DNA of 64,000 nucleotides from Candidatus Nanopelagicales bacterium (GTDB taxonomy: Bacteria > Actinomycetota > Actinomycetes > S36-B12): the NCBI GenBank assembly GCA_018402075.1, contig JAGYJP010000004.1, forward strand, positions 82,474-146,473, given 5' to 3'. Both the position numbers and the translations under genes were made by a program. Under the pieces are notes generated by a model. The model was not told the DNA's origin. It saw only the letters and a program-made list of their open reading frames with translations, and made no database searches. Within the stretch, counting starts at the first letter, position 1, and the number at the start of each line of letters is the position of its first letter. Positions 55,322 to 59,942 of the stretch are shown piece after piece.

Positions 55322-55410
55322 GGAGGCGTCGCCTAGTCCGGTCTATGGCGCCGCACTGCTAATGCGGTTTGGGTTCATCCCCATCGAGGGTTCAAATCCC
55401 TCCGCCTCCG
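55322..55410 (+). tRNA. tRNA-Ser (anticodon GCU)
   Basis: Acceptor GGAGGCG pairs with CGCCTCC; anticodon stem CCGCA/TGCGG with loop CTGCTAA gives GCT; long variable arm present; T-arm GAGGG-TTCAAAT-CCCTC. Discriminator G. It reads AGC/AGU. Confidence 0.95.
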
Positions 55411-55419
55411 CCGTGTGCC

Positions 55420-55442
55420 CGAGTGATGGCTGGGCTCACTCG
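55420..55442 (+). terminator. Hairpin between tRNA-Ser and tRNA-Arg
   Basis: CGAGTGA paired with TCACTCG (7 bp) around a 9-nt loop, just after tRNA-Ser(GCU). No T-run follows, so it may be a processing or terminator-like structure. Confidence 0.4.
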
Positions 55443-55488
55443 AGTGTGAACACGAGTGATCGCTAGACTCACGCCCTGCACATGTTCG

Positions 55489-55561
55489 GCGCCCGTAGCT
55501 CAACGGATAGAGCATCTGACTACGGATCAGAAGGTTTGGGGTTCGAATCCCTACGGGCGCG
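55489..55561 (+). tRNA. tRNA-Arg (anticodon ACG)
   Basis: Acceptor GCGCCCG pairs with CGGGCGC; anticodon stem TCTGA/TCAGA, loop CTACGGA gives ACG; T-arm TGGGG-TTCGAAT-CCCTA. The gene is complete although an insertion element starts 3 bp after its last base; the target duplication restored its 3' end. Confidence 0.95.
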
Positions 55562-55564
55562 CTT
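55550..55564. repeat. 15-bp target-site duplication, left copy
   Basis: cctacgggcgcgctt, covering the last 12 bases of tRNA-Arg plus 3 bp. The identical copy flanks the right end of the insertion element. Confidence 0.8.
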
Positions 55565-55611
55565 TGTGATGTCTCAGGACATGCTTATCGGATGTCTCGA
55601 GACATCCTTAT
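55565..55611 (+). repeat. Left terminal inverted repeat of the IS
   Basis: 47 bp beginning TGTGATGTCTCAGGACAT. It contains two TGTC..GACAT-type motifs (at 55570 and 55592), probably transposase binding sites. The transposase stop codon lies inside it. Confidence 0.75.
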
Positions 55612-56813
55612 TTTTTGAACTTGTATCCCTTGGGCATTCCGCCTTTTCTGTGTCCGGGTCTGGGTCCGGGTTTCGCGCCGCGGGGTTGGCTGTTTTTGTC
55701 GGGGTTGATGGTGAGTTCGCGAAGGATTTCTCCGGTGTCGCGGTTGATGACGATGACGTGTAGGTCGTGGATGAGCATGCGGATGGGTGTGCCTGCGTGT
55801 TCCATGCCGAGTTTGATGTGGTGCAGGCGTCCTCCTCGTCGCAAGGTGACTGATCCTGTTGCGTGGATGGTGTCGTCGCGGATGCGGAAGTGTCTTGTTG
55901 TGTTGTGGTCGGGGATGGCTTTTGCTCTGGCTGTGTAGGCCTGGGTGGGGGTTTTCCGGTTCAGTGCGCGGTGGGGTCTGCGGGTGTTGTAGTAGTCGGT
56001 GAATTCGTTGAGTTGGTGTTGGAGTTCGGTCAGGTTGCTTGCTCGTGGTCGTGCGGTGAGCCAGCGTTTGAGTGTTTGGTTGAGGCGTTCGACTTTTCCT
56101 TGTGTTTGGGGGTGGTTGGGTGTTCCGTTCTTTTGGTGAACGCTGAGGTTGAGGAGTTCTATTTCAAAGGCGTTGGCTCCGCCACGATGTCTGGTGGTGA
56201 AGACGAATCCGTTGTCGGTCAACGTGGATTGGGGTGTGCCGTAGGTGGCGCAAGCGGCACGGAAGGTGGTCAACACGATTGCGCCGGTGACGGGTTTGTG
56301 GGCGGTGGCGGAGATGAGGAATCGGGAGTGGTCGTCGAGCCAGAGGAGAATTTCCGCGTCGTGTCCGTTGGCTAGGCGCCAATGGGTGAAGTCTGATTGC
56401 CAGGTTTCGTTGGGCAGGTCAGCTTCAAATCGTAGGTAGGTGCGGCGTGGGCGTTTGCGTGGTTCGGGAGTGATCAGGCCGGCGCGGGTCAAGATGCGCC
56501 AAATGGTTGTTACTGCTGGTGGCGTCTTCATTTCGGTGGTCAGTGCTGCATGGATGGAGTGCGGACCGGCGTCGGCTCCGTAATCGATGAGTTCCTTACG
56601 CAAGGTCATGATGCGTTGGACTACCGCTGGTGGCGTGGTGCGGGGATTGGTTTTGGGTCGTCGAGATTGTGGCTCGAGTGCTTGCCATCCTCCTGTCCGC
56701 CACGCTGCTAGGAGCTGTGCGACTCGAGGCTGCGAAAGCCCGTAGAGCCTGGCCACCTCCCTTTGAGACTTGCCTGAGAGAACTGCTTCAACGACCACTC
56801 GATGCTTTGACAT
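55608..56813 (-). CDS. IS481-family transposase
   Basis: 401 residues from ATG 56813 (TTG 56819 possible). An N-terminal helix-turn-helix (VLSGKSQREVARLYGLSQ) is followed by rve-type DDE integrase core: TWQSDFTHWRLANGHDAEIL, STLTDNGFVFTT and GKVERLNQTLKRWL carry the three acidic residues. A Gly/Pro-rich basic tail ends RKGGMPKGYKFKK. The gene spans nearly the whole element and shows no frameshift. Confidence 0.93.
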   Translation of the reverse strand: MSKHRVVVEAVLSGKSQREVARLYGLSQPRVAQLLAAWRTGGWQALEPQSRRPKTNPRTTPPAVVQRIMTLRKELIDYGADAGPHSIHAALTTEMKTPPAVTTIWRILTRAGLITPEPRKRPRRTYLRFEADLPNETWQSDFTHWRLANGHDAEILLWLDDHSRFLISATAHKPVTGAIVLTTFRAACATYGTPQSTLTDNGFVFTTRHRGGANAFEIELLNLSVHQKNGTPNHPQTQGKVERLNQTLKRWLTARPRASNLTELQHQLNEFTDYYNTRRPHRALNRKTPTQAYTARAKAIPDHNTTRHFRIRDDTIHATGSVTLRRGGRLHHIKLGMEHAGTPIRMLIHDLHVIVINRDTGEILRELTINPDKNSQPRGAKPGPRPGHRKGGMPKGYKFKK

Positions 56814-56848
56814 GGCCAAAAGGCTGTCAAAGTTGACTCATCCAAGTG

Positions 56849-57132: not shown

Positions 57133-58323
57133 TCAGTTCGACTTTCGCCAGGATGAAAAACTGCGCACTGAACCTGTGTGCGGTGTGGTGAGCCAGGGGT
57201 AGGGGTGGATCTCAGCGAGATCTTCGAACTTGTGAAATGAAGGAACAGGTGCGAAGGTGACGGCGACCGGGTTTTTCTGGGTGAACAAGTATGGATCGCC
57301 AAGGAGCACCTGCAGGTTTCGCCGTTCGCTGAGGTCTTTCAATGTTTCCAAGTAGAAGCCGATTCGCCGCGAGCTTAGTTGCAGTTTCGCTAATGCGGGC
57401 TCGTTGAAAACAAAGACAACGGGGAGGTCAGGGTGGGCAACGAGGGCTGGGTCGGCATCTCCCATTGAGTCAATGGTCAAGAGAACATATGTCGGTTTCT
57501 GATTTACAACTGGGCTGAGCGGACCTGAAGTTCTGATGGGGTCAGGATCTCGGTCAAGAAGTGGATCTCGGTGAAGTTGGCGCAGAGTTGTTTCATTCGG
57601 AAATTCTTGAATAGGGCAATCGGATTTCAGTGGGCACCTACCGCACAGTCCGGGTGCTCGTTTCTCGACCTGCCAACGAGCGAAACCATATGGCTTGCCG
57701 GTTCCAGCGCCCACCGTCCATTGCCAACCCAGTAGATTTGCCGCACGTGAACCATCAATTAGTTGGCGGTACATCAACTCTTGCCCGCTCCACCAACCAA
57801 TGTCATTGCGCACGGTCCAATGCGATGCAAGCCACATGCGAGTCTGGTTGACCAGCCAGCCGTCTGTCTCCAATTCTGCAAGGACTTCATTAATACAGAG
57901 CATCTCGCGATTCCAGCCGTGACCTGGTGCATTTCGATTCGCGTCAAAGCGCAGGTTTTCATAAAGACGTTTGCCAATCCGCGCATAGAGGTGACGGGCG
58001 TATTCCTGCCAGAAAAGTTCATCGCGAAACTTCTCGCGATCCTTGTATGGCGCAGTTGATACTGCGCGGTACACCTGTTCCAGAGTCAAAATGTTGTGGC
58101 GAATATATGGCGAGAGCATGCTTGCACCACGTTTGTCTTTCGGTAAAACCTCAGAGCGCTGTTGGGCATAGTTGGTGATATCAAGATTTGCAAGCGCTGC
58201 ATCCGCGGCAGTCTGGCCTCCGGGAATGGAACTCAAGCCCAACTCACCCGAGAACAGGCCGCGGAAGTCACGCTCAATAACTTCCACGAGGGGTGAATTG
58301 AGATCGATAGTTTCAGTTGACAT
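57133..58323 (-). CDS. Photolyase/cryptochrome-like protein with FAD domain first and Rossmann-like domain last
   Basis: 396 residues from ATG 58323. The N-terminal 15-240 is a photolyase FAD-binding domain: GASMLSPYIRHNILTLEQVY, FRDELFWQEYARHLYAR, LETDGWLVNQTRMWLASHWT and QLIDGSRAANLLGWQW-TVG. A Cys cluster GLCGRCPLKSDCPI (residues 227, 230, 236) follows. Residues about 278-390 look like the photolyase N-terminal alpha/beta domain: DLPVVFVFNEPALAKLQL, RRIGFYLETLKDLSERRN and VLLGDPYLF. In classical photolyases that domain comes first, so this looks permuted. Inferred role: flavin-dependent light response or DNA repair. A longer start at 58353 is possible. Confidence 0.75.
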   Translation of the reverse strand: MSTETIDLNSPLVEVIERDFRGLFSGELGLSSIPGGQTAADAALANLDITNYAQQRSEVLPKDKRGASMLSPYIRHNILTLEQVYRAVSTAPYKDREKFRDELFWQEYARHLYARIGKRLYENLRFDANRNAPGHGWNREMLCINEVLAELETDGWLVNQTRMWLASHWTVRNDIGWWSGQELMYRQLIDGSRAANLLGWQWTVGAGTGKPYGFARWQVEKRAPGLCGRCPLKSDCPIQEFPNETTLRQLHRDPLLDRDPDPIRTSGPLSPVVNQKPTYVLLTIDSMGDADPALVAHPDLPVVFVFNEPALAKLQLSSRRIGFYLETLKDLSERRNLQVLLGDPYLFTQKNPVAVTFAPVPSFHKFEDLAEIHPYPWLTTPHTGSVRSFSSWRKSN

Positions 58324-58419: not shown

Positions 58420-59223
58420 ATGCAGTTCGTGGAGCAGCAATCAATCAATGAATTCCATGACCACGGCGTGACAATTATTCGCGGGCTTTTCAGCCCCGAA
58501 GAAGTAGTCGTGATTGAGCGCGGCATTGAGAAGAATCTGGCCAAGCCTGGTCCCATGTTTAAGGTGGCCAGCACCCCCGAGGACCCAGGAAAGTTCGTTG
58601 AGGACTTTTGCAACTGGAGTCGAATAGATGAATTCCGCCAGATTGCATTTGAATCAAAGGCGGCCGATGTCGCCCTTGCATTGATGGGCGGGAATACCGT
58701 CCGGCTTTTTCATGATCACATGTTGGTAAAAGAACCAGGGACACTTCAGCACACACCGTGGCATCAAGATCAGCCGTACTACAACGTGGACGGTGTCATG
58801 AATGTTTCCATGTGGGCGCCGGTGGATCCGGTTGCGCCGGAATCCACCTTGGAATTCCTTGCCGGCTCACACAAAATGGGGTGGCTCATGCCGCGGACAT
58901 TTATGGACAACCAAGCCAAGTGGTTCCCCGAAGGCAGCATGTCAGAGATTCCTCAAATCGAAGCGGATCGCAACAACTTTGATATTCGAGGTTGGGCAAT
59001 GCAACCGGGCGATGCCGTGTTCTTCCACATGTTGACGATTCACCATTCCTATGGTGTGCCCGGCAAGAATCGTCGCCGGGCCTTTTCGCTGCGCTTTCTC
59101 GGCGATGACATGGTTCACGCGCCACGCGACTGGGTAACTTCCCCCAACTTTGATGGCCTGAATTTGGAAATACCCGCTGGCGCTCCCATGGAGCACGAGC
59201 TTTTTCCCCTGGTGCGAACATGA
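58420..59223 (+). CDS. Phytanoyl-CoA dioxygenase (PhyH) family
   Basis: 267 residues, Fe(II)/2-oxoglutarate-dependent. HTPWHQDQPYYNVDGVMNVS gives the H-x-D of the iron site, VFFHMLTIHHSYG the distal His, and RRAFSLRFLGDD the 2-oxoglutarate Arg. The N-terminus has FHDHGVTIIRGLFSPEEV, typical of PhyH. Substrate unknown (lipids or small molecules). The next start overlaps its stop (ATGA), linking it to a pterin dehydratase gene. Confidence 0.88.
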   Translation: MQFVEQQSINEFHDHGVTIIRGLFSPEEVVVIERGIEKNLAKPGPMFKVASTPEDPGKFVEDFCNWSRIDEFRQIAFESKAADVALALMGGNTVRLFHDHMLVKEPGTLQHTPWHQDQPYYNVDGVMNVSMWAPVDPVAPESTLEFLAGSHKMGWLMPRTFMDNQAKWFPEGSMSEIPQIEADRNNFDIRGWAMQPGDAVFFHMLTIHHSYGVPGKNRRRAFSLRFLGDDMVHAPRDWVTSPNFDGLNLEIPAGAPMEHELFPLVRT

Positions 59224-59480
59224 GTGTTGAACTTTCTTCCGAATGGTTCAATGAAGGGAACTCCCTTCGCCTCTCGGTGACATGCACCACTTTTATCGAT
59301 GCCATCAATCTTGTTCGTGAAGTGGCTATTGCTGCTGAAGACATGGATCATCATCCAGATATTGATATCCGGTGGCGCACGGTGACATTTGTGCTCAGTA
59401 CACACTCTGCCGGCACAATTACCGATCTTGACTTTCAACTTGCCCACAAAATTGATGCACTTATTGCATTACAGAACTAG
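59220..59480 (+). CDS. Pterin-4a-carbinolamine dehydratase family
   Basis: 86 residues, short but complete: FIDAINLVREVAIAAEDMDH then HHPDIDIRWRTVTFVLSTH, then SAGTITDLDFQLAHKIDAL, matching the signature with the catalytic His residues (H-H-P-D). It dehydrates 4a-hydroxytetrahydropterin; in bacteria without phenylalanine hydroxylase nearby it may serve another pterin role. Coupled to the PhyH gene by ATGA. Confidence 0.88.
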   Translation: MSVELSSEWFNEGNSLRLSVTCTTFIDAINLVREVAIAAEDMDHHPDIDIRWRTVTFVLSTHSAGTITDLDFQLAHKIDALIALQN

Positions 59481-59489
59481 GCTTTTCAC

Positions 59490-59942
59490 GTGGGATCGAA
59501 AAGTTATGATGCACTGTGGGGAACAGCGCTGCGTACCACAACCCACCTACATAAATTCGTGTCCTGGGCGAGTAGAGGAAAACTCGGTCGCACATTCCCT
59601 GGTGGCGCACAAGTTGTGTGGATCACCACCCTTGGCCGAAAGTCAGGTCAATGGCGAAGAACACCACTACTTGCCGTTCCCATCGATGGTGGGTGGGGAA
59701 TCACCGGATCAAATGCGGGTCAAGAGAAAGTTCCGGGTTGGGTCTACAACGTGGAATCACATGACAAGGGAATATTAGAAATTGATGGCGAGGACATGCA
59801 GGTGACATTCACGCAAGTGGATGGAGAACTGAAAGATCGTATTTATTCGGGTTTAGCCGCGCAATGGTCGGCATATGACATGTATAAAAGAAACATTAGA
59901 CGCGAGATTCCCGTATTCCTCGTGAAGCCAGTAAGTATTTAG
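59490..59942 (+). CDS. Deazaflavin (F420)-dependent nitroreductase-like protein
   Basis: 150 residues from [23 protein letters not shown] and [20 protein letters not shown] are the Ddn/FGD-like beta-barrel motifs, with the R-T/R-R-T-P segment that contacts the F420 phosphate. DDN proteins use F420H2 to reduce quinones and nitro compounds and are typical of actinobacteria. Overlaps the convergent rmlA by 4 bp. Confidence 0.85.

Follow-up and report, generated by a model that had tools for sequence, protein, structure and literature searches.

The window analysed here, a stretch of 64,000 nucleotides from a Candidatus Nanopelagicales bacterium (contig JAGYJP010000004.1), carries on its minus strand an intact open reading frame (ORF) of 396 codons (57133..58323, stop codon within the span), the ATG start of which agrees with that of a close homolog (P0001). 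The 396-residue product begins with a helical catalytic domain of the flavin adenine dinucleotide (FAD)-binding type (residues 1-251; 57571..58323, minus strand) and ends with a Rossmann-like photolyase alpha/beta domain (residues about 276-395; 57139..57498, minus strand), an arrangement that departs from the class I cyclobutane pyrimidine dimer (CPD) photolyases, where the alpha/beta domain precedes the FAD domain, and that, according to both profiles and structure comparison, it shares with the Phr6 type. We consider that this gene probably encodes an iron-sulfur (Fe-S) CPD photolyase of inverted topology, belonging with Phr6, the Fe-S short photolyase-like (SPL) proteins and NewPHL. The components of this assignment that are directly supported are the domain order, the homology of the alpha/beta domain and the conservation of the cysteines.

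A Pfam search of the window protein (E<=1) placed PF03441 (FAD_binding_7, the catalytic domain of the photolyase/cryptochrome superfamily) at residues 148-209 with 35.1 bits, over the curated cut-off of 27, and returned no match to PF00875 or to PF04244, which we take to be the family of the (6-4) Fe-S type. The NCBIfam photolyase, DASH and plant-cryptochrome models match at FAD-domain positions only and far below their cut-offs, and the sequence alignments with PDB entries equate window residues 33-212 with the catalytic domain of ordinary photolyases; this comparison with the PDB found no solved structure of an inverted photolyase. The structure predicted from 111 sequences reached a mean predicted local distance difference test score (pLDDT) of 96.8 and a predicted template modelling score (pTM) of 0.94. 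The initial annotation, which had proposed that the FAD domain comes before the alpha/beta domain, is borne out by sequence profiles, by the Pfam order in relatives and by structure comparison, and the reversed order is thus confirmed as real; it may have arisen by circular permutation or by a separate domain fusion. An artefact or chimera was rejected, as the 120 listed homologs have the same layout (119 of them covering 95-100% of the query), and so do loci from the genome collection (the best 80 retained out of at least 570, unequal in length).

The identity of the C-terminal domain was established through profile linkage and structure rather than through the PF00875 model itself. PF00875 was detected in 22 of 113 aligned proteins (E<=0.01), and among ten relatives scanned with Pfam it followed PF03441 in the six for which it was reported (in P0140, for example, the two domains lie at 87-204 and 286-383, each scoring above its curated cut-off). 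The joint C-terminal profile scored about twice the shuffled maxima. The C-terminal profile built from the window clade only was not significant against ordinary photolyases, and the joint profile found no match in a four-sequence profile of Fe-S photolyases. Structure prediction and comparison with photolyase domains, the check put forward in the initial annotation, assigned the C-terminal part to the photolyase alpha/beta type: when this domain alone was compared, all but one of the first 35 VIA rows were photolyases or cryptochromes, with their N-terminal domain as the aligned part, although 20 of these 34 represent a single Methanosarcina enzyme. This comparison used a first model, made from 15 close relatives, in which the FAD domain was poor (mean pLDDT 64.9) and the C-terminal domain was mostly well predicted; the best Foldseek match to the same model (1iqr, at 0.056) did not reach E<=0.001. 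The possibility that an unrelated Rossmann or universal-stress-protein-like domain, and not the photolyase antenna domain, was joined to the FAD domain appears highly improbable in view of the VIA rows, the occurrence of PF00875 in relatives and the joint-profile scores.

The initial annotation had also considered a cysteine cluster as an Fe-S or metal site, counting three ligands. The idea is strengthened and the count was wrong: beside C227-x2-C230-x5-C236 (57616..57645, minus strand) there is a fourth conserved cysteine, C143 (57895..57897, minus strand), which had been missed and would be the first of the putative Fe-S ligands. This correction matters, as the cysteine count decides how plausible an Fe-S cluster is. 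Each of the four positions is Cys in 72/72 proteins of the window clade, and the counterparts of C143, C227, C230 and C236 are Cys in 116, 114, 116 and 115, respectively, of 116 proteins of the Phr6 type. In a permissive hhalign run against a profile of four PF04244 proteins, C143 aligned with C346 of the Fe-S photolyase L118, and C227, C230 and C236 with its C434, C437 and C450; these four L118 cysteines are the ones conserved throughout the four profile proteins. A Pfam EndIII_4Fe-2S motif coincides with the window cysteines below threshold (E 0.6). Judged by residues, the protein thus has the four Fe-S cysteines of both the Phr6 type and the Fe-S bacterial (6-4) photolyases, and by analogy with these it may hold a [4Fe-4S] cluster. 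Haney et al. relate cysteines C169, C254, C257 and C263 of RS9916 Phr4 to the Agrobacterium Fe-S photolyase (PMC9426592); the long gap of 85 in Phr4 is one residue off the 84 of the window protein.

As regards the lesion, the stretch E102-L-F-W105 (58009..58020, minus strand) falls in the columns of the conserved catalytic Glu and Trp of ordinary photolyases (Klebsiella E275 and W278), and N159-Q-T-R162-M163 (57835..57849, minus strand) is a CPD-type motif with N, R and M as in these enzymes. In the column alignment E102, W105, N159, R162, M163, W177, D190, N196, W200 and W202 are all the same as in ordinary photolyases. The Klebsiella 305-314 stretch has no counterpart in the window protein; by the E. 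coli numbering it presumably includes W306, the last member of the Trp triad, so that a dyad would remain. This agrees with the Trp dyad reported for the Dinoroseobacter NewPHL.

Because the window protein has NQTRM where L118 has HHIPRLM, we prefer CPD over (6-4) repair, contrary to what was predicted for Phr4/Phr5. An inverted-domain (6-4) photolyase, with the Fe-S cluster as the mark of (6-4) specificity as proposed for Phr4/Phr5, is unlikely: the PF04244 N-terminal domain and the HH motif of that class are both absent (N159-Q replaces HH), a separate PF04244 gene is already present in 9 of the 10 genomes that we selected for holding a window-type gene, and SPL is described as an Fe-S cluster-bearing CPD photolyase. 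What speaks for it is that the four cysteines are the same as in Fe-S bacterial photolyases and that the authors of the phr4/phr5 study make this prediction and describe a UV-C phenotype (PMC9426592).

In the mechanism that we propose for an Fe-S inverted CPD photolyase, FAD would be held by the N-terminal helical domain, and the reduced cofactor, excited by blue/UV-A light, would donate an electron to a CPD lying near E102, W105, N159 and M163; the dimer would split and the electron would then return to the flavin, which could itself be reduced via a shortened Trp chain (W200-W177), the third Trp having no counterpart. A [4Fe-4S] cluster on C143, C227, C230 and C236 would, as in Fe-S bacterial photolyases, staple the catalytic domain at its end. 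The alpha/beta domain, the antenna carrier in ordinary photolyases and now C-terminal, would pack onto the FAD domain, seal the pocket and possibly bind an antenna. By analogy with NewPHL, reportedly characterised by repair of CPDs in single-stranded DNA, the latter is perhaps the preferred substrate. Residues and the described relatives are our grounds for inferring that the protein acts on CPDs, binds an Fe-S cluster, has a sealed pocket and perhaps prefers single strands.

A tree of the FAD domain, made from 40 chosen rows (32 inverted proteins and 8 ordinary photolyases, other photolyase classes being left out) and to be read with a warning about long branches, separated the inverted proteins from the ordinary ones by a single branch (support 100/100). 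Within the former, the actinobacterial clade with the window protein (14 rows) had support of 100/99, the four NewPHL-like rows formed a separate clade (100/100), and the Phr6-type group was weakly supported (56/81). A single clade of the window clade and the Phr6 type gave a p value of 0.464 in the approximately unbiased test (p-AU), which neither establishes nor rejects such a clade. The records with window-type genes, among the best 80 loci, bear the labels Nanopelagicaceae, Aquiluna, Rhodoluna, Cryobacterium, Frigoribacterium, Patulibacter and Acidimicrobiia, and two metagenome-assembled genomes (MAGs) labelled Chloroflexi have the gene as well. Of 396 genomes sampled from the phylum to which Candidatus Aquiluna belongs, 26 have one (the Aquiluna genome counted). 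The range of this kind of DNA-repair enzyme, recognised only recently, is thereby extended to aquatic and cold-living actinobacteria. A phage origin was rejected, the matches in 8 phage records being only partial (36-45% of the query); three viral models (two named photolyases, one unnamed) matched at E under 0.004. Phr6-type Fe-S inverted photolyases were also seen on large plasmids of Deinococcus (L001, L002, L003), and among the 120 relatives listed for the Deinococcus protein, four (P0156, P0158, P0159 and P0160; 688-709 residues) combine PF03441 with the uracil-DNA glycosylase domain PF03167 (at 524-670 in P0156), so that an inverted photolyase is fused to a second enzyme of DNA repair.

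All ten genomes selected for holding a window-type gene also have an ordinary photolyase. The best NCBIfam model of these ten proteins was class I in seven and plant-cryptochrome in three, never DASH, and none of them reached an NCBIfam curated cut-off, DASH included (L097 was taken from an internal Met). Since an ordinary photolyase is present in 10/10 and a PF04244 gene in 9/10 of these genomes, the window-type protein likely has a third, non-redundant role. In the Frigoribacterium genome G004 (locus L061; also L106:1279-2499 and L116:880-2178), a window-type gene is accompanied by an ordinary photolyase, a PF04244 gene and a pair of NewPHL-like genes that share about 90% identity. A NewPHL-like query run against 396 genomes (E<=1e-20) matched 33 of them, with near-identical matches (100%, 90%) only in the query's own and partial matches of 29-37% identity in the other 32.

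The gene neighbourhood was compared over the 80 loci. No conserved operon and no neighbour common to most loci was seen: the window ORFs matched in at least two loci were those overlapping the photolyase gene, one ABC ATPase (28-32% identity in 3 loci) and two more ORFs (2 loci each, 28-45%), and the larger neighbour clusters were mostly overlapping-frame artefacts. In the window, a transposase with an rve integrase core (55608-56819, minus strand) lies between tRNA-Ser/tRNA-Arg genes (55322-55562) and the photolyase gene. On the other side, divergent genes at 58420-59942 (plus strand) encode phytanoyl-CoA dioxygenase-like, pterin-4a-carbinolamine dehydratase-like and F420H2-quinone-reductase-like proteins, each of which was matched in fewer than two of the 80 related loci; the last of these suggests an F420-using host, which is relevant to a possible deazaflavin antenna. 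The lack of a widely shared neighbour over the 80 loci, signalling or other, together with the retention of all repair-site residues examined, makes it quite improbable that the protein is a cryptochrome-like light sensor and not a repair enzyme. This alternative draws on the freshwater actinobacterium Rhodoluna lacicola, whose uncharacterised, light-responsive cryptochrome-photolyase CPF2 is listed among putative light sensors (PMC8591293), and on a Rhodoluna-labelled MAG (L051) with a window-type gene and one ordinary photolyase; the gene counts suggest that CPF2 may be a photolyase of the window type.

The initial annotation could not tell whether the reversed order had been described. It is an already described architecture, which makes it less of a surprise than first thought, and because inverted photolyases (Phr4/Phr5, Phr6, NewPHL and SPL) are published, the window protein is placed as a divergent actinobacterial branch of a known group. 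It is a deep, little-described branch from aquatic actinobacteria; the literature search found no paper naming this clade, a weak absence given that two founding papers (Emmerich 2020, Xu 2021) lay outside the search. Besides PMC9426592 and PMC8591293, the literature drawn on includes PMC13274461, PMC12083526, PMC8948257, PMC9178010, PMC9649867 and PMC9498864.

The inverted order has been published for Phr4/Phr5 and Phr6 of Cyanobium/marine Synechococcus (Haney et al. 2022, PMC9426592). The window protein shares with these the FAD domain first, the photolyase domain last and four cysteines at almost the same spacing; it differs in being one continuous ORF, whereas Synechococcus splits the protein over two, and in belonging to another clade, the Phr6-type rows being 24-31% identical to it. 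The Cyanobium PCC 7001 protein in our alignments (P0214) is taken to be the Phr6 of that strain. The PhrB-type Fe-S bacterial cryptochromes/photolyases differ in their ordinary domain order, their HH motif and their presence as a separate gene in 9 of the 10 genomes selected for the window type.

NewPHL, of which Emmerich 2020 is reportedly the source study, is described in citing papers as having an inverted topology with an N-terminal FAD domain. The window protein shares this topology, and the NewPHL-like rows (proteins that we read as NewPHLs from layout and tree) lie on the inverted side of the tree; it does not cluster with the alphaproteobacterial FAD-binding-domain proteins, the clades being separate with four such rows only. 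Its four cysteines set it apart, the C-x2-C pair being present in 0/9 NewPHL-like proteins, and Prochlorococcus Phr7, of the NewPHL kind, is likewise given as having no Fe-S cysteines (PMC9426592). The C-terminal domain of NewPHL-like proteins could be aligned only weakly: with nine sequences, hhalign gave 63% against the Phr6 type (score 33.0; shuffled maximum 19.4 in 60), 15.7% against the joint profile (24.7; 20.2 in 60) and 5.8% against ordinary photolyases (no shuffled control), and with four sequences only 8.4% or less, which is no more than suggestive of a relocated alpha/beta domain.

SPL, a Rhodococcus fascians member of which is said to have an Fe-S cluster and CPD activity (Xu 2021), would match the window protein, whose cysteines and CPD-type residues predict these two traits. 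Citing papers present SPL as similar to class I/III, as lacking an alpha/beta domain and as possible ancestors, whereas the window protein has this domain at its C terminus. We tentatively raise the possibility, without favouring it, that the "short" photolyases (the Fe-S members at the least, the NewPHLs perhaps as well) are not antenna-less primitives and have the same domain at the C terminus, after one old inversion that left three deep branches, one of them the actinobacterial one of the window and the other two the Phr6 type and NewPHL. If the domain was indeed moved and is not absent, the argument for short photolyases as ancestral would be weakened and need rethinking, and the window protein lends itself to a clean test of how photolyases arose.
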